The translations under genes were made by a program, and so were the position numbers. From Bosea sp. OAE506 (GTDB lineage: Bacteria; Pseudomonadota; Alphaproteobacteria; Rhizobiales; Beijerinckiaceae), in assembly GCF_040546595.1 (NCBI RefSeq), contig NZ_JBEPOB010000001.1, positions 4,093,001-4,157,000 on the forward strand: DNA of 64,000 nt. Direction: 5' to 3'. Below are positions 19,456 through 29,213 of this stretch, piece after piece (position 1 is the first letter of the stretch; each line of letters opens with the position of its first letter). Below the pieces are notes generated by a model, which saw only the letters and a list, made by a program, of their open reading frames with translations, searched no databases and was not told the DNA's origin.

Positions 19456-20385
19456 ATGCTCACCTTGCGGCAGATCGAGGTGATCCGCGCCATCATGATC
19501 ACCGGCACGATCAGCGGCGCGGCGAAGCTGCTCGCAGTGTCGGCGCCCGGCATCAGCCGGCTGATGAAGCACACCGAGAAGACGCTGCGGCTGAAGCTCT
19601 TCGAGCGTCGCCACGGGCGCTATGTGCCGACGCCCGAAGCCAACGACATCTTCGAGCAGATCAACGGCGTCTACAAAAAGGTCGACGACCTCCACTACAC
19701 GCTGGCGCGGATCGAGCGCGGCGGTGGCGTCGAACTGCGGATCGGCTCGGTGCCGAGCATCTGCCATGTGATGGTGCCGCGCGCGATCGAGAAGCTGAAG
19801 CGCAAGCACCCCGATCTGCGGCTCGACATCAACATCCTCAAGATCGAGGAAGCGCTCGACTATCTGCTGCTGGGCCGCGGCGAGATCGCGGCGATGAGCT
19901 ACAAGCTTGACCATCCCGGCATCGATTTCCTGCCGCTGAGCCGGGGCGAACTGCTCTGCATCGTGCCCGAGGGCCATGAACTCGCCGGGCGGCCGGTGAT
20001 CTCGGCCTCCGAGATCGTCCGCCATCCGCTGATCGGCATCGACCCCAACGACCCCTATGGCCGGGTCATGGCCGAGATCTTCAGCCGCCAGGGACTCGCC
20101 TACGACATTGTCATCAAGGCGCGCTTCGGCACCACGGTCTGCTCGCTGGTGCGGGCGGGGCTCGGCATCGCGGTGATCGACCAGTTCACCGTGGCGCATG
20201 GCTCGATGCAGGGCATCGCCACGATCCCGATCGCCGAGCCGACGCAGTTCCAGACCTATGTCGCGATCAAGAACGACAAGGCGCCTTCGGTCTATGCCGA
20301 GACCTTCGTGACGCTGCTGCGGCAGGAGATGGATGCGGTGGTGAGACCGCGTGCCCCAGAGATCCGCGGCCGGCTGGCAGGATAA
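19456..20385 (+). CDS. LysR-family transcriptional regulator
   Basis: 309 residues. The N-terminal winged helix starts MLTLRQIEVIRAIMITGTISGAAKLLAVSAPGISRLMKHTE, typical of LysR proteins, followed by a periplasmic-binding-like co-inducer domain (RIGSVPSICHVMVPRAIEKL, LLCIVPEGHELAG, LVRAGLGIAVIDQF). It lies head-to-tail, 113 bp upstream of the QsuD-like gene and the ABC transporter, so it is the likely regulator of the hydroaromatic island, with quinate, shikimate or dehydroshikimate as plausible inducers (inference). Confidence 0.9.
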   Translation: MLTLRQIEVIRAIMITGTISGAAKLLAVSAPGISRLMKHTEKTLRLKLFERRHGRYVPTPEANDIFEQINGVYKKVDDLHYTLARIERGGGVELRIGSVPSICHVMVPRAIEKLKRKHPDLRLDINILKIEEALDYLLLGRGEIAAMSYKLDHPGIDFLPLSRGELLCIVPEGHELAGRPVISASEIVRHPLIGIDPNDPYGRVMAEIFSRQGLAYDIVIKARFGTTVCSLVRAGLGIAVIDQFTVAHGSMQGIATIPIAEPTQFQTYVAIKNDKAPSVYAETFVTLLRQEMDAVVRPRAPEIRGRLAG

Positions 20386-20401
20386 CATCAGGTTAGGTTA
20401 T

Positions 20402-20421
20402 GCGATCAAATTGGTCATCGC
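20402..20421. promoter_or_regulatory. Candidate LysR-type operator before the QsuD-like gene
   Basis: Dyad GCGAT-N10-ATCGC in the only sizeable gap of the island, 78 bases before the dehydrogenase start and just after the LysR gene. The interrupted-dyad form resembles LysR sites, although the T-N11-A spacing is off by one. Confidence 0.35.
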
Positions 20422-20498
20422 GTTAGCGAGGACGATCGGCTTATCTGGTGGTGGCAACGCCTGCTAAGACGATGGGCGAGCCACACAGGGACGAGACG

Positions 20499-21383
20499 AT
20501 GCCGGACATTGCCATCGCCAACCGGACGAAGCGCGTGCTGCTGGGCCTGATCGGCACGCCGATCGCCCACTCCGCCGCGCCCGCGATGCATGAGGCTGCC
20601 GCGCGCGCCGCCGGTTTCGAGCTGCATTACCATCTGATCGAGGTCGCCGGCGCCGCACGCGCCGATCTCGTCGCCATCCTCGACGGCGTGCGGCGGATGG
20701 GCTTTTCGGGCGTCAACGTCACCTATCCCTACAAGGAAGCGGTCGTCCCGCTGCTCGACGCGCTCTCGCCGGAGGCCCGCGCCATGGGGGCCGTCAACAC
20801 AGTCGTATCTCGCGACGGCGTGCTGACTGGCCACAACACCGACGCGACCGGCTTCGCCACCTCCTATCGCGCACTCGGCCGCGCCGATGGCGACGCCCCC
20901 GTCGCGATCATCGGTACGGGCGGGGTGGGCAAGGCGATCGGCTTCGCGCTGGCGGGCTGCGGCGTCAGCCATCTGCGGCTCTATGACAGCGACCGCGCCA
21001 AGGTGCAGGCGCTGGCCGACCAGATCGGCGAACTGGCGCGGGTCGAGATCTGCAGCAGCGTCGAGGCGGCGGTGTCGGGTGCGGCGGGCCTCGTCAACGG
21101 CACCCCGGTCGGCATGCTGCCGAACCGCGACAGCCCCGTGCCGGCCGATCTTATCCGAAAGTCTCAGTGGGTGGCGGATGCCGTCTATCATCCCCTCTGG
21201 ACACCGCTGCTCAAAGCCGCGCAGAAGGCGGGCGCCGTGGTGATGACGGGGCGCGAGCTCAGCATCAACCAGGCCGTCGATGCGTTTTCGCTGTTCACGG
21301 GGGTGCAGCCCCCGGACGGCGCGATCGCCGACGCTTTCGACCGATCGCTCGCCGCGCAGGAGGCCAGGCACCGCGCAGCCTGA
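20499..21383 (+). CDS. Quinate/shikimate dehydrogenase (QsuD-like)
   Basis: 294 residues of the AroE superfamily. Catalytic Lys79 (NVTYPYKEAV) and Asp115 (HNTDATGF) are kept, with a GTGGVGKA Rossmann loop. Three points favour the catabolic quinate/shikimate subgroup over biosynthetic AroE: the substrate loop reads HSAAPAMHE (second Ser of the S-x-S pair is Ala), the sequence after the second beta-strand is LYDSDRAK with an Asp that favours NAD over NADP, and the tail SINQAVDAFSLFTG matches that subgroup. The start at 20499 has AGGGACGAG upstream. It would oxidise shikimate or quinate for the dehydratase encoded 6 kb downstream. Confidence 0.85.
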   Translation: MPDIAIANRTKRVLLGLIGTPIAHSAAPAMHEAAARAAGFELHYHLIEVAGAARADLVAILDGVRRMGFSGVNVTYPYKEAVVPLLDALSPEARAMGAVNTVVSRDGVLTGHNTDATGFATSYRALGRADGDAPVAIIGTGGVGKAIGFALAGCGVSHLRLYDSDRAKVQALADQIGELARVEICSSVEAAVSGAAGLVNGTPVGMLPNRDSPVPADLIRKSQWVADAVYHPLWTPLLKAAQKAGAVVMTGRELSINQAVDAFSLFTGVQPPDGAIADAFDRSLAAQEARHRAA

Positions 21384-21463
21384 GATCACCCCACTTCAAA
21401 GACGGCCCGCGGGCCACCCAAGAAGACCAAAAAAAGCACAACCAGAGCTGGAGGAGACACGCA

Positions 21464-22600
21464 ATGAAGACCCCATGGATCATCGCAGCGGCCGTGACGG
21501 CCGGGCTCGCCACGCCTGCGCTGGCGCAGGAGAAGGTGAAGCTCGTCGACGTCGTCGAGCTGTCGGGCGCCGGCGCGACCGCCGGCACCAACTGGAAGAA
21601 CGGCATCGACCTCGCCGTCGCCGACATCAACGCCAAGGGCGGCATTCTCGGCAAGCAGATCGAGATCGTCCATTACGACACGCAGACTAACCCGGGTAAC
21701 ACCCGCGCCGCCGTGCAGCGCGCCATCGACGAGGGCACCTATGCCGTGCTCGGCCCGGTCTTCTCCGGCCCGATCGGCGCCTCCATGCAGATCGCGCAGC
21801 GCGCCGAGATCGCGCAGATCGTCGGCGGCGAGGCGGCCGGCCTGACCAAGCAGGGCAACCAGTACATCTTCCGCACCTCGCTCAGCCAGTCGGCCGCGAT
21901 GCCGAAGATCGCCAAGTACCTCAAGGACACCGTCAAGGCCGGTTCGGTCGCCGTGGTCTGGGTCAACAACGACTTCGGCAAGGGCGGACGTGACGCGATC
22001 ATCCCCGAGCTCGAGAAGGTCGGCATCAAGGTTGCGGCCGACGTCTCGACCGAGCAGGGCCAGGCCGATTTCGCCGCCGACGCGATCAAGATCAAGAACG
22101 CCAATGCCGACGCCGTCTTCGTCTATCTGAACGAGGAGGAGAGCGCCCGCTTCCTGCGCGCCGCCAAGCAGCAGGGCATCACCAAGCCGATGGTCGGCGA
22201 GACGACGCTGCTCGGCGCCAAGGTGATCGAGCTCGCCGGCGACGCCGCCAATGGCGTGCGCGGCCATGTCGGCCTGTCGATCGACGCGCCGATCCCGGCC
22301 TTCCAGGAGTTCGGCAAGAAGTTCCAGGCGAAGTACAACTACGCCTCCGACCATAACGGCCTGAAGGGCTACATGGCCGTCTATATGATCAAGTGGGCGA
22401 CCGAGAAGCAGAAGAAGTTCGACAAGAAGGGCGTCGCCGACACGCTGCGTGGCGCGACGATCAAGACCTCCGAGGAGCCTGGCATCCTGATCGAGACCAC
22501 GATCGAGGCCAATGGCGACCTCGACCGCGAGAGCTTCCTCGCCGAGGTCCAGAACGGCAAGCAGGTGATCACGGCGACGCTGCCGAAGATCAAGCCGTAA
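21464..22600 (+). CDS. LivJ-type ABC substrate-binding protein
   Basis: 378 residues: a signal peptide (IIAAAVTAGLATPALAQ) and a type I periplasmic-binding fold of the branched-chain amino-acid/hydrophobic-ligand group: SGAGATAGTNWKNGIDLAVADIN, VLGPVFSGP, VVWVNNDFGKGG, and FVYLNEEESARFLRAAKQQG. Preceded by GGAGGAGACAC at good spacing. First gene of a complete importer (binding protein, two permeases, two ATPases). Its place between a quinate/shikimate dehydrogenase and a dehydroshikimate dehydratase suggests a hydroaromatic or aromatic acid ligand rather than leucine; this is inference from context. Confidence 0.92.
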   Translation: MKTPWIIAAAVTAGLATPALAQEKVKLVDVVELSGAGATAGTNWKNGIDLAVADINAKGGILGKQIEIVHYDTQTNPGNTRAAVQRAIDEGTYAVLGPVFSGPIGASMQIAQRAEIAQIVGGEAAGLTKQGNQYIFRTSLSQSAAMPKIAKYLKDTVKAGSVAVVWVNNDFGKGGRDAIIPELEKVGIKVAADVSTEQGQADFAADAIKIKNANADAVFVYLNEEESARFLRAAKQQGITKPMVGETTLLGAKVIELAGDAANGVRGHVGLSIDAPIPAFQEFGKKFQAKYNYASDHNGLKGYMAVYMIKWATEKQKKFDKKGVADTLRGATIKTSEEPGILIETTIEANGDLDRESFLAEVQNGKQVITATLPKIKP

Positions 22601-22627
22601 GGTCACACGCTTCCGTAAGACTGGTCG

Positions 22628-22743
22628 CTGTCATCCCGGGCGACCGAAGGGAGACCCGGGATCCATTCCGGCACGAGGCCGGAAAGGCTCAGGAATGGAT
22701 CCCGGCTCTCAGCGGCGCAAGCGCCGCTGAGAGCCGGGATGAC
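22628..22743. repeat. REP-like element with 20-bp hairpin between binding protein and permease genes
   Basis: The outer ends read GTCATCCCGGG and CCGGGATGACA and pair. Inside, 22699-22718 and 22721-22740 form a perfect 20-bp stem with a two-base loop. GGATCCATTCC and GGAATGGATCC also pair. There is no T-run, so it is not a standard terminator; in ABC operons a hairpin here commonly protects the binding-protein mRNA and lowers permease expression. Confidence 0.8.
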
Positions 22744-22788
22744 ACGGCACCTTTACAACGACGCTCTCCCCTCGAGCGAGGCACCCCC

Positions 22789-23667
22789 ATGGCCGAATTC
22801 ATCGCCTATCTCATTGCCGGCATCGCCACGGGCGCGATCTACGCGCTGGCTGCCATCGGCTTCACGCTGGTCTGGCAGACCTCGCAGACCATCAACTTCG
22901 CCCAGGGCGAGTTCGTGATGCTGCCGGCCGTGCTGGTGCTGCTCGCGATCAAGCTTTTCGGGGCGCCGGTCTGGCTGGGCGCGCTGATCGGCATCGCCGC
23001 CTTCATCCTGATCTTCGGCGTCGGCTTCAAGCTCACCGTGGTCGATCCGATGATCAAGCATGGCGTGCTGCCGCTCGCCATCGCCACCATGGCGCTGTCG
23101 ATCATCATGAAGGAAGGCGCCAAGGACGGCTTCTCGGCCGAGGCGCAGAACTTCCCCTCCTTCGTTCCCACCAGGACCATCGAGGTCTTCGGCGCCGCGA
23201 TCTCGCTTCAGCATCTGGCGATCATCGCCTGCGCCTTCGCCGTCATCGGCCTGCTGCAATGGTTCGTCGGCGGCACGCGGCTCGGCCGGCAGATGCAGGC
23301 GACCGCGCAGAACCCGACCGTGGCGCGCATCCTCGGCATCCCCGTCGAGCGGATGGTGCTCCTGACCTTCGTGATCAACGCCGCGCTCGCCGTCGTCGCC
23401 TCGGTGCTGATCTCGCCGATCTACCTGGCGAAGTTCTCGAATGGCGAGGTCATCGGCCTGTTCGCCTTCATCGCGGCCATCGTCGGCGGCTTCAACCAGG
23501 TCCGCGGCGCGCTGGTCGGCGGGCTGATCGTAGGCGTCGTCGACTCGATGGCGGCGGCCTATGTCTCGAGCTCCTACCGGCTGGCCGTGCCGCTCGTCCT
23601 GCTCGTGGTGATCATCCTGCTCAAGCCCGAGGGGCTGATGGGCCGCAAAGAGGAGCGCCGCGTATGA
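22789..23667 (+). CDS. LivH-type ABC permease
   Basis: 292 residues with about eight hydrophobic segments. Typical LivH features: GIATGAIYALAAIGFTLVWQTSQTINFAQGEFVML near the N-terminus and the cytoplasmic EAA-like loop GRQMQATAQNPTVARILGIPVERM. It forms the transmembrane channel with the next gene product. The next gene's ATG overlaps its stop by four bases (ATGA), indicating coupling. Separated from the binding-protein gene by the REP hairpin. Confidence 0.95.
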   Translation: MAEFIAYLIAGIATGAIYALAAIGFTLVWQTSQTINFAQGEFVMLPAVLVLLAIKLFGAPVWLGALIGIAAFILIFGVGFKLTVVDPMIKHGVLPLAIATMALSIIMKEGAKDGFSAEAQNFPSFVPTRTIEVFGAAISLQHLAIIACAFAVIGLLQWFVGGTRLGRQMQATAQNPTVARILGIPVERMVLLTFVINAALAVVASVLISPIYLAKFSNGEVIGLFAFIAAIVGGFNQVRGALVGGLIVGVVDSMAAAYVSSSYRLAVPLVLLVVIILLKPEGLMGRKEERRV

Positions 23668-24686
23668 CCGTGCAAGCGACCCGCGAGACCATGAGCTCCT
23701 CGCCTCGCCTCGCGCGGCTGCCGCTCGGCGGCACCTTCGACGGCGCCTTCCTGACGCTGCTGGCGGGCGCCGTGATCCTCTGGTTCGCGCCGGTCGGCAT
23801 GGGCCGCTACGGCACCTATGTGCTCTCGCTCTGGCTGGTGATGAGCGTCGCCGTGATGGGGCTGAACCTGACACTGGGCTATGCCGGGCTGAAGTCGCTG
23901 GCGCAGGCCGCCTTCATGGGGCTGGGCGCCTACACCACCGCGATCCTGACGACGAAATACGGCGTCTCCTGGTATGCCGCCTTCGGGCTCTCGGGCTTGC
24001 TGACCTTCGCGGTCGGCATCGTGCTCGGCTTCCCGGCGCTGCGGGTGAAGGCGCATTACCTCGCCTTCGTGACGCTCGCCTTCTCGACGCTGATCTGGCT
24101 GATCCTGCGCAACGAGCAGTGGCTCACCGGCGGCGTCTTCGGCATCTCCAACATCAACCGGCCGGATTTCTTCGGCATCAAGCTGTTCGGCGCGCTCGAA
24201 TTCCACCGCTTCGTCGTCGTGGTGACCTTCATCCTGGCGGTGGCGCTCTGGTGGCTGATCCGCTCGCCCTGGGGCCGCGCCTTCACGGCGCTGCGCGAGA
24301 ACCCGATCCGTGCCGCGAGCCTGGGTATCGACACCCGCGCCTACACGCTGCTCGCCTTCGCCATCGGCTCCGCCTATGCGGGCTTCGCGGGGGCGCTCTA
24401 TGCGCCGCTGGTCGAGTTCATCGACCCCTCGCCGTTTTCGCTGTCGCAGAGCTTCTTCCTGCTGCTGATGGTGGTGGCGGGCGGCTCGGGCTACCTGCTC
24501 GGGCCATTCGTGGGCGCGCTGCTCGGCGTCGTGCTGCCGGAATGGCTGCGCTTCGCCGGCTCGCTCTACCTGATCATCTTCGCGGCCATCGTGATGCTGC
24601 TGCTGATCGCCTGCCCGCAGGGGGTGAGCGGGCTGATGGAGCGGGCCTGGGCGAAACTCACCGGCAAGCGGGGAGAGACCCGATGA
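23664..24686 (+). CDS. LivM-type ABC permease
   Basis: 340 residues with about nine hydrophobic segments and the LivM signatures LSLWLVMSVAVMGLNLTLGYAGLKSLAQAAFMGLGAY and the coupling loop SPWGRAFTALRENPIRAASLGID. Overlaps both neighbours by four bases (ATGA at each end), so the two permeases and the first ATPase are translated as a coupled block. Second half of the heterodimeric membrane channel of the hydroaromatic-island importer. Confidence 0.95.
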   Translation: MTVQATRETMSSSPRLARLPLGGTFDGAFLTLLAGAVILWFAPVGMGRYGTYVLSLWLVMSVAVMGLNLTLGYAGLKSLAQAAFMGLGAYTTAILTTKYGVSWYAAFGLSGLLTFAVGIVLGFPALRVKAHYLAFVTLAFSTLIWLILRNEQWLTGGVFGISNINRPDFFGIKLFGALEFHRFVVVVTFILAVALWWLIRSPWGRAFTALRENPIRAASLGIDTRAYTLLAFAIGSAYAGFAGALYAPLVEFIDPSPFSLSQSFFLLLMVVAGGSGYLLGPFVGALLGVVLPEWLRFAGSLYLIIFAAIVMLLLIACPQGVSGLMERAWAKLTGKRGETR

Positions 24687-25426
24687 ACACGGTTCTGGAA
24701 GTCGACAATCTCCACAAGGCGTTCGGCGGCATCAAGGCGGTCAACGGGGTATCCTTCTCGGTGAAGGAGGGCGAGATCCTCGGCATCATCGGCCCCAATG
24801 GCTGCGGCAAGTCGACCCTGTTCAACTGCATCCTCGGCCAGCTCGAGCCGACGGAAGGCAGCGTGAAGCTGGATGGCCGCGAGGTCACCCATATGCGTCC
24901 CTCGGAGCTGAACCGGCTCGGCGTCAGCCGCACCTTCCAGCTGCTGCAGGTCTTCCCCGAGCTGACCGTGCGCGAGAACCTGATCCTCGCGGGCCAAGAG
25001 CATGAGGGTTCGATGCTGTCGCGCCTGTTCGGGGCGCGTGATGCCGGGCTCACCGAGAAGGCCGAGCAGATGATCGGCTTCTTCAAGCTCGGCCATCTGG
25101 CGGACGCCAAGGCGGGCGGGCTCTCCTATGGCCAGCAGAAGCTGCTCGACGCGGCGATGGCCTTCATGGCCGGCCCCCGCCTCGTGCTGCTCGACGAGCC
25201 CGCCGGTGGCGTCAACCTCACCATGCTGGGCGATCTCAAGGAGCGGCTGCGCGCGATCAATGCCGAGCAAGGCGCGACCTTCGTCGTCATCGAGCACAAC
25301 ATGGATTTCGTGATGAGCCTGTGCTCGCGCGTCATCGTGCTCGCGGAGGGCCGAGTGCTGGCGGAAGGCACGCCGGCCGAGGTCCGCGCCAACCCGGCCG
25401 TGATCGACGCGTATCTGGGGCATTAA
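24683..25426 (+). CDS. LivG-type ABC ATPase
   Basis: 247 residues with Walker A GPNGCGKST, Q-loop in SRTFQLLQVFPELTV, a LivG-like signature LSYGQQK, Walker B VLLDEPAGGVN and the switch His in VIEHNMDFV. Powers import with the LivF-type partner encoded downstream. Its ATG overlaps the LivM stop. The 102 bp to the next ATPase start are filled mostly by a palindromic repeat, which is unusual since livG and livF are normally tightly coupled. Confidence 0.95.
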   Translation: MNTVLEVDNLHKAFGGIKAVNGVSFSVKEGEILGIIGPNGCGKSTLFNCILGQLEPTEGSVKLDGREVTHMRPSELNRLGVSRTFQLLQVFPELTVRENLILAGQEHEGSMLSRLFGARDAGLTEKAEQMIGFFKLGHLADAKAGGLSYGQQKLLDAAMAFMAGPRLVLLDEPAGGVNLTMLGDLKERLRAINAEQGATFVVIEHNMDFVMSLCSRVIVLAEGRVLAEGTPAEVRANPAVIDAYLGH

Positions 25427-25431
25427 CATCC

Positions 25432-25507
25432 GTCATGCTCGGGCTCGACCCGAGCATCTCCTGCAAGGGATTCTCGGGTCTGTGCTGCGCTCCGCCCGAG
25501 AATGACG
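25432..25507. repeat. Palindromic REP-like element, copy 2, between the two ATPase genes
   Basis: Starts GTCATGCTCGGGCTCGACCC and ends GCCCGAGAATGACG, nearly identical at both ends to the element at 911-1013 but with a shorter middle. It separates livG from livF in an otherwise overlapping operon. An ATG inside it (25502) is in frame with livF but has no good ribosome-binding site. Confidence 0.8.
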
Positions 25508-25528
25508 CGGAAGGGAATGGAGACCGGA

Positions 25529-26266
25529 ATGACCACCCCCATCCTCGAACTCGACGGCGTGGTCGGCGGCTATGGCGCCATGACCATCCTGAACGGCACG
25601 ACGTTCAAGGTGCGCCGCGCCGCCATCACCACGGTGATCGGCCCCAACGGCGCCGGCAAATCGACCGTGTTCAAGGCGATTTTTGGCCTCCTGAAGGTGC
25701 GCGAGGGCACGATCCGGCTCGAGGGCACCGACATCACCAACTGGAGCCAGCGCAAGCTGCTGGAGGCCGGCATCTGCTATGTGCCGCAGGGGCGCAACAT
25801 CTTCCCCGAGCTGTCGGTTCGCCACAATCTCGAACTTGGTTCGGTCGCAGCGGGCGCGCACATCACCGACATGCCCAAGCGGATCGAGGCGGCGCTCGAC
25901 CGCTTCCCGGCGCTGCGGGCCAAGGCCGATGTCCAGGCCTCGACACTCTCGGGCGGGCAGCAGAAGCAGCTCGAGATCGTGCGCGGGCTCTTGCTCGATC
26001 CCAAGCTGGTGCTGATCGACGAGCCCTCGATCGGGCTCTCGCCGATGCTGGTGCAGGAGACCTTCGCGATCCTGATGGAGCTGCGCGCCAAGGGCGTCAC
26101 CATCCTGATGATCGAGCAGAACGCCCGCTCGGCGCTGGAAATTTCCGACGAGGGCCTCGTGCTCGAACTCGGCCAGACCCGGATGCAGGGCCCCGCGGCG
26201 GAGATCCTGGCAGACCCGCGGGTGGCGCAGCTGTTCCTGGGCGGCGCGCTGACGGACGCGGCGTAA
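25529..26266 (+). CDS. LivF-type ABC ATPase
   Basis: 245 residues with Walker A GPNGAGKST, the LivF-typical CYVPQGRNIFPELSVRHNLELG, signature LSGGQQKQLE, Walker B LVLIDEPSIGLSP and switch His-equivalent region MIEQNARSAL. The ATG at 25529 follows GGAG by six bases; in-frame ATGs at 25502 and 25517 would start in or next to the REP element and are less likely. The stop TAA shares its last base with the ATG of the oxidoreductase gene (TAATG), tying that enzyme to the transporter operon. Confidence 0.94.
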   Translation: MTTPILELDGVVGGYGAMTILNGTTFKVRRAAITTVIGPNGAGKSTVFKAIFGLLKVREGTIRLEGTDITNWSQRKLLEAGICYVPQGRNIFPELSVRHNLELGSVAAGAHITDMPKRIEAALDRFPALRAKADVQASTLSGGQQKQLEIVRGLLLDPKLVLIDEPSIGLSPMLVQETFAILMELRAKGVTILMIEQNARSALEISDEGLVLELGQTRMQGPAAEILADPRVAQLFLGGALTDAA

Positions 26267-27312
26267 TGGCAAACCTGAAGATCGCCCTCGTCGGCGCCGG
26301 GCTGATCGGGCGTGCGCATCTGGAGCGGCTGGACGCCTCCGGCGACTGCGACTGCGCCGCGATCTGCGACCCGACCGATGCGGCCAAGGCGCTGGCCGCC
26401 GAGCGCGGCACGCCTTGGTTCGCCTCGATCACGGAGATGCTGGCGGCACTGAAGCCGGGCGGGGCGATCATCGCGACGCCCAATGCGCTGCATGTGCCGG
26501 GCGCGATCGAATGCCTCGAAGCCGGCGTGCCCGTGCTGATCGAGAAGCCGCTGGCCGAGAGCGTCGCGGCGGCGCAGCGTCTGGTCGCGGCACAGGCGCG
26601 CACCGGCGTTCCCGTGCTCGCCGGCCATCACCGGCGCCACAACCTGATCGTCAAGGCGGCGCGCAAGCTGGTCCGCGAGGGCGGGATCGGCCGGCTGGTC
26701 GCGGTGACCTCGCTGTTCCTGATCCGCAAGCCGGACGACTATTTCGACGTCGCCTGGCGGCGCGAGGCGGGCGGCGGGCCGGTGCTGATCAACCTGATCC
26801 ACGACATCGACAACCTCCGCTTCATCTGCGGCGAGATCGAGAGCGTGCAGGCGATGACCTCGAACGCGACGCGCGGCTTCGCGGTGGAGGACACCGCCGC
26901 CCTTGTCTTCCGCTTCGAAAACGGTGCGCTGGGCACGGCCACCGTCTCCGATGTCACGCCGACGCCGTGGAGCTGGGAGCTGTCCTCGGGCGAGAACAAG
27001 GCCTATCCGCAGCGCGACGGGCTCTGCTACCTGCTCGCCGGCAGCGAGGGCTCGCTCTCGGTGCCTGCGCTCGACCGCTGGCATTATGAGGGCCGCCAGG
27101 GCTGGTGGGAGCCGCTGCTGCGCGAGACGCTGGCGCTGGCGCCGCTGGAACCGCTGGCCGAACAGATCCGGCATTTCTGCGCGGTGATCCGCGGCACGGA
27201 GACGCCAATCACCGACGCGGCGGATGCGGCCCGGACACTCGCGGTGATCGAGGCGGTGGCTCAGGCGGCGCGGCGGGGCGAGCCCGTCACCATCGACCGC
27301 ATGGAGGGCTGA
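26266..27312 (+). CDS. Gfo/Idh/MocA-family oxidoreductase
   Basis: 348 residues: an N-terminal NAD(P) Rossmann domain (IALVGAGLIGRAHLERL), IIATPNALHVPGAIECLEAG, the family EKPLAES motif with its conserved Lys, and a C-terminal beta-sheet domain (LINLIHDIDNLRFICG with candidate catalytic His, VEDTAALVFRFENGALGTATVSD). Members oxidise sugars, inositols or cyclic polyols. Located between the transporter and the dehydroshikimate dehydratase, it could act on quinate or a related cyclohexane carboxylate; that is inference. It starts on the last base of the LivF stop. Confidence 0.9.
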   Translation: MANLKIALVGAGLIGRAHLERLDASGDCDCAAICDPTDAAKALAAERGTPWFASITEMLAALKPGGAIIATPNALHVPGAIECLEAGVPVLIEKPLAESVAAAQRLVAAQARTGVPVLAGHHRRHNLIVKAARKLVREGGIGRLVAVTSLFLIRKPDDYFDVAWRREAGGGPVLINLIHDIDNLRFICGEIESVQAMTSNATRGFAVEDTAALVFRFENGALGTATVSDVTPTPWSWELSSGENKAYPQRDGLCYLLAGSEGSLSVPALDRWHYEGRQGWWEPLLRETLALAPLEPLAEQIRHFCAVIRGTETPITDAADAARTLAVIEAVAQAARRGEPVTIDRMEG

Positions 27313-27317
27313 CAGCC

Positions 27318-29213
27318 ATGACGAACCCAGCGCCGAACCCGACCTCGATCGCCACCGTCTCGCTGAGCGGCGACCTCGCGGAAAAACTGCAGGCGATCGC
27401 AGCGGCCGGGTTCGACGCGGTCGAGGTGTTCGAGAACGATTTCCTCACCTTCGACGGCGGGCCGCGCGAGGTCGGCCGCATGGTCGCCGATCTCGGCATG
27501 ACAATCTGCGCCTTCCAGCCCTTCCGCGATTTCGAGGGCATGCCGGAGCCGCTACGAGCCCGCGGCTTTGCCCGGGCCGAGCGCAAATTCGCGATCATGA
27601 ACGAGCTCGGCACCGATCTGATGCTGATCTGCTCGAACGTTTCGCCGCAGGCGCTGGGCGGGATCGACCGCGCGGCGGCGGATTTCCACCAGCTCGGCGA
27701 GCTCGCCGCGCGCTTTGGCGTGCGCGTCGGCTATGAGGCGCTGGCCTGGGGCCGGCACGTCAACGATTATCGCGACGCGTGGGAGATCGTGCGCCGGGCG
27801 GAGCATGAGCGGATCGGGCTGATCCTGGATTCCTTCCACACGCTGGCGCGCCAGTCGCCGTTGGGGCCGATCGCCTCGATTCCGGGTGACCGCATCTTCC
27901 TGGTCCAGCTGGCGGATGCGCCGAAGCTCGACATGGACGTCCTGAGCTGGAGCCGGCATTTCCGCTGCTTCCCCGGCCAGGGCGATCTCGCGGTGGCCGA
28001 GTTCATGCGGGCGGTGGCGCAGACCGGCTATGCCGGGCCGCTCTCGCACGAGATCTTCAACGACCAGTTCCGGGCCGGCTCGGCGCGGCGCCTCGCGACC
28101 GACGGCATGCGCTCGCTGATCGCGCTCGCCGACCAGGCACAGCCGCATCTGCCAGCGCGCGCGAAAGTGCTCGATGTCGAGTTCATCGAGTTCGCGCTCG
28201 ATGAGGAGACGGCGGCCGAACTCGCCAAGCTGCTGGCGGCGCTGGGCTTCCGCCATAGCGGCCAGCATGTCAGCAAGGCGGTCTCCCGCTGGAGCCAGGG
28301 CGGCATCAGCCTGCTGCTCAACACCGAGACGGACGGTTTCGCCCAGTCGCATGCGATCATGCATGGGCCAGGCGCCTGCGCGATTGCCTTACGCGTCGAT
28401 GATGTCGAGCAGGCGATGACCCGCGCGCTGGGGCTGAAGATCCAGAGCTTCGAGCAGGCCGTCGGGCCGGGGGAACTGCATATTCCCGCCATCCGCGGCG
28501 TCGGCGGGTCGCTGATCTACTTCACCCAACCCAGCGGCGAACTCGGCCAGATCTGGGAGCGGGATTTCGAGGCTGTGCCACCTACGGCCGGCGCCCCGTC
28601 ACCGGATGTGCTGGCGCGGGTCGACCACATCTCGCAGTCGATGGACTATGAGGAGATGCTGTCCTGGCTCTTGTTCTACTCCTCGCTCTTCGCGCTGGAG
28701 CGGATTCCGCAGCTCGCCATCGCGGATCCGGCGGGGCTGGTGGAGAGCCGGCCGCTGGTCTCGCCCGAGGGCGGGGTGCGTTTCGTGCTCAACGGCTCGC
28801 AGGCGACGCGGACCCTGTCCTCGCGCTTCGTCTCGGAGCATTTCGGCTCGGGCGTGCAGCATATCGCCTTCAGCGCGCCCGACATCTTCGCGGCGGTCCA
28901 GGCGATGCGCGAGGCGGGGCTGTCCTTCCTCGCCATCCCCGAGAACTACTACGAGGACCTCGAAGCGCGGCACGGGCTCGACCCCGCCTTCATCGACGCG
29001 CTGCGCGACCACCACATCCTCTACGACCGCGACGGCGAGGCCGAATTCCTGCAGGTCTATACCCATGTCTTCGCGCAGCGCTTCTTCTTCGAGATCGTCG
29101 AGCGGCGGGGCGGCTATGCCGGTTTCGGCGCGGTCAACGCACCGGTGCGGCTGGCGGCGCAGGCCCGCGAGGCGCGGCCCGTGACAATGCCGCGCTCGCT
29201 GCGGGAGGTCTGA
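27318..29213 (+). CDS. quiC1: 3-dehydroshikimate dehydratase, QuiC1-type two-domain protein
   Basis: 631 residues. The N-terminal sugar-isomerase-like TIM barrel carries metal ligands Glu140, Asp171, Gln197 and Glu245 and a His at 174; this spacing is the same as in the Pseudomonas QuiC1 dehydratase, offset by six. The C-terminal half (about 285-610) is a 4-hydroxyphenylpyruvate-dioxygenase-like VOC domain that keeps the H-H-E metal triad (His437 in VDHIS, His515 in VQHIAF, Glu592 in FFFEIVERRGG). The enzyme converts 3-dehydroshikimate to protocatechuate. Five bases after the oxidoreductase gene, last in the operon. Confidence 0.9.
   Translation: MTNPAPNPTSIATVSLSGDLAEKLQAIAAAGFDAVEVFENDFLTFDGGPREVGRMVADLGMTICAFQPFRDFEGMPEPLRARGFARAERKFAIMNELGTDLMLICSNVSPQALGGIDRAAADFHQLGELAARFGVRVGYEALAWGRHVNDYRDAWEIVRRAEHERIGLILDSFHTLARQSPLGPIASIPGDRIFLVQLADAPKLDMDVLSWSRHFRCFPGQGDLAVAEFMRAVAQTGYAGPLSHEIFNDQFRAGSARRLATDGMRSLIALADQAQPHLPARAKVLDVEFIEFALDEETAAELAKLLAALGFRHSGQHVSKAVSRWSQGGISLLLNTETDGFAQSHAIMHGPGACAIALRVDDVEQAMTRALGLKIQSFEQAVGPGELHIPAIRGVGGSLIYFTQPSGELGQIWERDFEAVPPTAGAPSPDVLARVDHISQSMDYEEMLSWLLFYSSLFALERIPQLAIADPAGLVESRPLVSPEGGVRFVLNGSQATRTLSSRFVSEHFGSGVQHIAFSAPDIFAAVQAMREAGLSFLAIPENYYEDLEARHGLDPAFIDALRDHHILYDRDGEAEFLQVYTHVFAQRFFFEIVERRGGYAGFGAVNAPVRLAAQAREARPVTMPRSLREV

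Follow-up and report, generated by a model that had tools for sequence, protein, structure and literature searches.

A LivJ-type ABC importer in a probable shikimate uptake and catabolism operon of Bosea sp. OAE506

The question raised here is what an ATP-binding cassette (ABC) importer carries when its genes resemble those of a branched-chain amino-acid system and stand between genes for enzymes of shikimate breakdown. Such an importer lies in a 64,000-nucleotide stretch of Bosea sp. OAE506 DNA (the window), positions 4093001-4157000 of a 5.0 Mb one-contig genome. Family scans (Pfam/NCBIfam) identify nine genes in a row, all on the plus strand, at 19456-29213 of the window: a LysR-type regulator, a QsuD-like shikimate dehydrogenase, the five LivJHMGF importer genes, a Gfo/Idh/MocA oxidoreductase (Gfo) and a QuiC-type 3-dehydroshikimate dehydratase. 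An earlier reading made from the letters, the sequence-only reading, had described this set in one direction with several ATGA or TAATG overlaps; gene positions and family matches bear out both points, the overlaps being ATGA at LivH/LivM and LivM/LivG and TAATG at LivF/Gfo. The gene set is more than a chance assembly, since its order recurs in Bosea and Bradyrhizobium and key enzyme residues are invariant in homologues, and the island is likely to be a LysR-controlled operon by which the cell takes up and breaks down shikimate and, probably, 3-dehydroshikimate. That the importer would be a dedicated hydroaromatic one is well supported by context, because it is deeply conserved, it co-occurs with QuiC in genomes sampled blindly, a predicted LysR operator is shared among its loci, and QuiC islands elsewhere have importers of other types in its position.

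The dehydrogenase passes two shikimate dehydrogenase models (PRK00258.3-3, 363.5 bits against a cut-off of 252; PRK12549, 266.4 against 235), lies just under the cut-off of TIGR00507 (193.1 against 200.2 bits) and is below that of the NAD+ quinate/shikimate model PRK14027, i.e. QsuD (200.2 against 515). Its best PDB matches, almost level, are 2nlo, a shikimate dehydrogenase, and then 3jyo, named quinate/shikimate dehydrogenase, both presumably from Corynebacterium glutamicum. Among the 38 homologues called from 80 relative loci, K, N, D, Q and the Asp of an LYDSD motif are invariant, and a Ser is present in 32, the other six being gaps; we take these positions to be catalytic residues, and the Asp in LYDSD, at the cofactor site, to be the mark of an NAD-type dehydrogenase. 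Judged by this rule, the enzyme would work like QsuD despite the missed PRK14027 cut-off. The host genome encodes three AroE homologues, the island dehydrogenase included, of which another (L142:8044) stands in the order maf-aroE-coaE-dnaQ, read by eye, and looks biosynthetic; the island dehydrogenase is therefore surplus to biosynthesis, and its identification as the biosynthetic AroE was rejected.

The dehydratase carries the Pfam domains AP_endonuc_2 and Glyoxalase_5, as expected of two-domain QuiC-type dehydratases in the broad sense. Unlike QuiC equivalogs it lies under the NCBIfam cut-off (NF042435, 690.5 bits against 1200), and a relative at locus L178 scores 791.2 bits against the same model. 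It aligns with PDB 5hmq over residues 9-618 of 631 (E=1.6e-179, 601.6 bits); this entry, named HPPD, we take to be Pseudomonas QuiC1, with which the island enzyme shares both domains and the metal residues. Residues E140, D171, H174, Q197, E245, H437, H515 and E592, presumably the catalytic or metal residues of QuiC1 and HPPD, are invariant in 46/46 homologues from the 80 loci. A genome search found a single QuiC copy in the host.

The 80 relatives of the binding protein are the best 80 of 325 candidates in a named collection, among which the closest named relative is a Bosea metagenome-assembled genome (MAG) with a 98% identical binding protein. Conservation across genomes was one check that the sequence-only reading had proposed, and it came out in favour of the island: the gene order recurs in Bosea and in Bradyrhizobium, where the binding protein is 61-62% identical. 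'Near' was defined as a span from 6 kb before the binding-protein gene to 9.5 kb beyond it and a marker coverage of at least 30%, one marker sequence being used per family; 61 loci have full flanks and 19 short ones. On this basis LivH is near 71 of the 80 loci and QuiC near 49, and two dehydrogenase types stand beside the importer, QsuD at 39 loci and AroE2 at 6. The QsuD count includes L036 (8566-10001, Bosea lathyri), where the gap between LysR and the binding protein is too small for a whole QsuD, of which apparently a remnant survives. At least one hydroaromatic enzyme is near 58/80 loci, or 46/61 of those with full flanks.

The blind sample comprised 289 genomes of the class, searched at E<=1e-80 for the binding protein (found in 9) and E<=1e-130 for QuiC (found in 21); in each group the QuiC counts are minimum values, as copies at L177 and L181 were seen only on reading the neighbourhoods. 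Leaving out the host's own genome, QuiC is present in 6/8 carriers of the binding protein versus 14/280 non-carriers (Fisher p=1.3e-6, uncorrected for relatedness), and in 6/9 carriers, the window included, it lies within 10 kb of the binding protein (G000, G063, G067, G054, G180, G216; by eye).

In a quick tree of 91 rows, the label 'linked' or 'unlinked' to a hydroaromatic enzyme requires 8 changes versus a shuffled mean of 16.6, with 0/500 shuffles as low, a clustering that near-copies inflate; L071 was dropped for an internal stop, long rows gave warnings, and rows on short contigs stayed unlabelled unless an enzyme was seen. Linked proteins are spread over the family, and the largest group of unlinked rows, nine in number and for the most part Bosea (among them B. 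robiniae and B. thiooxidans), is nested in linked Bosea. At L038, L040 and their kin (B. robiniae-like) the importer keeps neighbours that also adjoin the window island, and LysR, QsuD and QuiC are absent; on the flanks of the L038 importer stand a zinc alcohol dehydrogenase and a gene that by eye resembles a metallo-beta-lactamase and matches no NCBIfam model.

A LysR homologue is near 45/80 relative loci, and aligning the DNA behind it brought out a conserved dyad. LysR sites follow the rule of a T-N11-A dyad upstream of the target, and such a dyad lies upstream of the island's dehydrogenase gene; it is new in this analysis and is a predicted LysR operator. The strict pattern TAACATNANGTTA occurs 38 times in the 1,596,528 bases of the window and the 80 loci (81 sequences), one per locus, and every one of the 38 lies upstream of the binding-protein gene, at a distance of no more than 2.3 kb; a relaxed pattern gives 47 sites in the same sequences, 44 of them in that region. 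At L033, L039, L041 and L053, where no QsuD intervenes, the dyad stands 127-406 bp before the binding-protein match. The host genome holds two strict copies, the second of them where a different LysR-type gene begins, at an unrelated location, and genome-wide the relaxed pattern is hardly above its control (7 sites versus 5 for the reversed pattern).

An ordinary branched-chain amino-acid importer, placed beside these enzymes by accident, is the identity that the fold and the name used in the sources (branched-chain amino acid transport system substrate-binding protein) would suggest. The binding protein passes the Pfam Peripla_BP_6 gathering score and has the type I periplasmic-binding fold of the HAAT/LivJ family; its AlphaFold model is confident (pLDDT 90.7) and matches LivK/LivJ and those Rhodopseudomonas palustris proteins whose solved structures contain 4-hydroxybenzoate, vanillate and coumarate. 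Against the high-affinity branched-chain model PRK15404, however, it reaches 131 bits where the cut-off is 477, and LivH, LivM, LivG and LivF likewise remain below theirs (122.3/379, 173.1/366, 216.7/362 and 173.4/441 bits/cut-off). The host has 13 LivJ-family binding proteins, the island one included, the next best being 27% identical to it. Together with the enzyme linkage that recurs across the class and the altered contact positions described next, these scores led us to reject the ordinary amino-acid importer as the leading reading, and we regard it as very improbable.

The contact positions were mapped from LivK by a phmmer alignment rather than from a bound structure, and since many of 28 alignment columns had been chosen as invariant in A1, the evidence is restricted to five positions. 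LivK Ser79, Thr102, Tyr150, Tyr202 and Glu226, which we take to be ligand contacts, correspond to S101 (kept), E123, F171, N223 and T247 of the island protein, of which the first four are identical in 64/64 linked binding proteins and T247 in 63/64. In four of the 12 host paralogues, those compared, position 101 is Ser or Thr, position 171 is Tyr in three and Phe in one, and positions 123, 223 and 247 hold other residues apart from one Ser at 247. The amino-acid contact signature thus appears to be largely gone; the gene set and fold are those of Escherichia coli LivJHMGF, whereas the presumed amino and carboxylate contacts are largely not kept and the operon partners differ. Among 18 unlinked proteins the same residue stands at these five positions in 15, 15, 18, 16 and 17 cases respectively; unlinked proteins mostly match linked ones here, and a changed ligand is therefore not indicated for them. 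Perhaps the orphan group L072, L074 and L078 is an exception with a changed ligand; these are paralogous binding proteins (68-71%) without LivHMGF, L072 being near tuf and ribosomal-protein genes (by eye).

Could the cargo instead be aromatic, for instance protocatechuate or 4-hydroxybenzoate, with importer and enzymes meeting only at the end of the pathway? The sequence-only reading had called hydroaromatic acids an unusual ligand class for the LivJ family, which overstated the case: in the accessible portion of a study of R. palustris, aromatic compounds are the main ligand of five ABC binding proteins, and of 22 COG0683 targets with non-matching annotation very few shifted with leucine, isoleucine or valine (PMC3223731). 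The same portion lists quinic and shikimic acids in the ligand screen, neither being named there as a main ligand, and records no growth of R. palustris on either acid (PMC3223731). RPA0985, RPA0668 and RPA1789 share the fold of the island protein and bind plant-derived cyclic acids; they differ from it in that their ligands are aromatic and their identity to it is only ~15-22%, the range of the solved aromatic-acid proteins generally. Among the 50 VIA-align matches listed, none is by name a shikimate- or quinate-bound entry, which excludes nothing. The ligand class would thus be new in detail and not alien, since same-fold binders of aromatic acids are known. An aromatic cargo would also fit locus L061 (11225-19600), where the importer is followed, behind LivF, by pcaI/J-like genes (by eye), pcaG, pobA and a PcaB-like gene in place of QsuD and QuiC, and L183, where PcaH and PcaG are near the island. 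The neighbours that recur, however, act before protocatechuate (QuiC 49, QsuD 39, AroE2 6 of 80), and the pcaH, pcaG and pcaJ markers match 1/80 loci, a lower bound with one marker each; we judge an aromatic cargo to be quite unlikely.

For the hydroaromatic importer that we prefer, the choice lies between shikimate and quinate. Shikimate and 3-dehydroshikimate need no dehydroquinase for this route and quinate does. In a marker search none of the 80 LivJ-type loci, 61 of them with full flanks, had a dehydroquinase near it, and on this ground shikimate and 3-dehydroshikimate are preferred over quinate. The sequence-only reading had proposed quinate, shikimate or dehydroshikimate as cargo; context supports the hydroaromatic importer, and quinate is disfavoured as its main cargo. 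QuiC islands elsewhere carry tripartite ATP-independent periplasmic (TRAP), PAAT-type ABC or ShiA-like carriers instead. In the blind sample, dehydroquinase is present in 6/9 TRAP-only islands, in the single PAAT island (1/1) and in 3/8 without a recognised importer (AroQ at L190, L193 and L195), and in none of the four LivJ-only QuiC islands (L177, L178, L181, L183); the neighbourhoods of L190 and L198 were read by tblastn. At L180 LivJ-type and TRAP importers share one QuiC island, with AroQ on the TRAP side, and at L095 the two types likewise stand side by side.

In 22 genomes chosen because the importer locus had no QuiC near it, 14 of 20 full-length QuiC places were read with importer markers, giving PAAT-type ABC at 6, TRAP at 2, ShiA-like at 2 and no recognised importer at 4, with dehydroquinase at 6/6, 2/2, 0/2 and 0/4 of these, respectively. 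The QuiC islands L132, L133, L134, L137, L138 and L140 carry a PAAT-type importer together with AroQ and AroE2; its binding protein resembles amino-acid ones, and it is possibly another misnamed hydroaromatic importer.

It might nevertheless be that the LivJ-type importer takes quinate, or quinate and shikimate alike, and that a biosynthetic or TRAP-linked dehydroquinase supplies the missing step. The near-level match of the dehydrogenase to 3jyo, the two type II dehydroquinases of the host genome and the three blind islands with AroQ and no recognised importer are consistent with this; the contrast between 0/80 LivJ-type loci and the TRAP-only and PAAT islands tells against it, as does a likelier quinate system in the host itself. 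This is a cluster at L207:8771-12058 (~C1:3948770-3952060) of a GntR-like gene (by eye), DctP, DctQ, DctM and the type II dehydroquinase AroQ, with neither QuiC nor a dehydrogenase beside the TRAP genes; its DctP is 81% identical to that of QuiC island L128, and it is probably a quinate system. Quinate as cargo of the LivJ-type importer is accordingly considered unlikely.

Several observations weigh against the assignment to shikimate. Three of the nine blind carriers (G193, G075, G080) and 15/61 full-flank loci have no hydroaromatic enzyme near the importer; G008, G013, G014 and G015 have the importer and no full-length QuiC; many loci are near relatives and so not independent; the L061 importer would also fit an aromatic acid; a biosynthetic AroQ could serve quinate catabolism; and the contact positions derive from presumed LivK contacts and a sequence alignment. 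In its favour, of the 22 genomes picked for having no QuiC near the locus, 18 have a full-length QuiC elsewhere, three an HPPD-like partial match only and one nothing, L071 and L072 being second copies where the first adjoins QuiC. At L051, L058 and L059 (G008, G014, G015) the importer stands with AroE2 and no full-length QuiC was detected, perhaps reflecting shikimate scavenging or incomplete MAGs.

With shikimate as the preferred cargo, LivJHMGF would, from its context, carry the acid into the cell, where the NAD-type dehydrogenase would convert shikimate to 3-dehydroshikimate and the QuiC-type enzyme would dehydrate this to protocatechuate, as homology and invariant residues suggest for both. 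PcaH and PcaG (PF00775 and a marker match) and pcaI/pcaJ-like CoA-transferase genes (by eye) are encoded elsewhere in the host genome, and protocatechuate can therefore probably be used, being cleaved by PcaHG and passed on by the PcaIJ-like subunits. LysR may respond to a hydroaromatic acid, or else to protocatechuate, through the predicted operator. The features are collected in Table 1.

Table 1. Features of the island, in positions of the window
Feature	Position	Strand	Remarks
LysR-type regulator	19456..20385	+	309 aa; Pfam HTH_1 + LysR_substrate
Predicted LysR operator TAACATCAGGTTA, T-N11-A dyad	20383..20395	+	overlaps LysR stop codon; ~100 bp 5' of dehydrogenase ATG
NAD-type shikimate (quinate/shikimate) dehydrogenase, QsuD-like	20499..21383	+	294 aa; ATG 20499, alternative GTG 20448
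Periplasmic binding protein, LivJ/HAAT family	21464..22600	+	378 aa; Pfam Peripla_BP_6 188.9 bits
Palindromic sequence, binding protein-LivH gap	22629..22744	.	inverted repeats I1-I3
LivH-type permease	22789..23667	+	292 aa; Pfam BPD_transp_2
LivM-type permease	23664..24686	+	340 aa; Pfam BPD_transp_2; ATGA overlap with LivH
LivG-type ATPase	24683..25426	+	247 aa; ABC_tran + BCA_ABC_TP_C; ATGA overlap with LivM
Palindromic sequence, LivG-LivF gap	25431..25507	.	inverted repeats
LivF-type ATPase	25502..26266	+	254 aa; possible starts 25502, 25517, 25529; ABC_tran
Gfo/Idh/MocA oxidoreductase, accessory	26266..27312	+	348 aa; Pfam GFO_IDH_MocA
QuiC-type 3-dehydroshikimate dehydratase	27318..29213	+	631 aa; TIM barrel + HPPD-like domain

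The Gfo enzyme was rejected as a defining part of the operon, its gene being near only 29/80 loci; it also occurs in QuiC islands with other importers. Its K and H, presumably catalytic, are invariant in 29/29 homologues called from the 80 loci. The family (E<=1e-70) is present in 30/289 blind-sample genomes, i.e. more widely than QuiC islands, and 4/30 copies (G000, G054, G210, G216) lie within 10 kb of QuiC, coordinates being compared by eye; it is an optional addition, perhaps a second dehydrogenase. The two intergenic gaps with palindromes measure 188 bp (binding protein to LivH) and 75-102 bp (LivG to LivF); the palindromes resemble repetitive extragenic palindromic sequences, and short parts of them are found again in other stretches of the genome.

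Among known systems, the C. glutamicum qsu cluster is comparable in its NAD-type quinate/shikimate dehydrogenase, with the same fold and cofactor-site Asp, and in a dehydratase leading to protocatechuate; the island differs from it in its five-gene ABC importer and two-domain dehydratase, uptake in the qsu cluster reportedly being by major facilitator superfamily (MFS) proteins. The available text on Rhizobium leguminosarum describes shikimate uptake by an MFS protein and protocatechuate uptake by a TRAP system (PMC3333776). Islands with TRAP, PAAT-type ABC or ShiA-like importers have the same enzyme partners (QuiC, often a shikimate dehydrogenase), the importers themselves belonging to unrelated families, and dehydroquinase is present in most TRAP/PAAT islands and absent from the two ShiA-like ones. 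In the open-licence literature no report of a LivJ-type hydroaromatic importer was found by title or abstract start, subscription papers being outside this scope.

A broader proposal, which is tentative, is that a LivJ-family lineage specialised for shikimate and 3-dehydroshikimate is ancient in Alphaproteobacteria, that TRAP and PAAT systems take quinate or dehydroquinate, and that Gfo is a further, undescribed hydroaromatic dehydrogenase. The binding-protein family is mass-annotated as amino-acid importers, and a conserved subfamily in Bosea and Bradyrhizobium that is linked to shikimate enzymes and lacks the usual amino-acid contacts would correct these names, would mark the use of plant hydroaromatic acids and might be turned into a sensor or an uptake system for shikimate. 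One catabolic pathway also recruits several unrelated importer types, and the presence or absence of dehydroquinase would give a testable rule for the acid carried by each of them.

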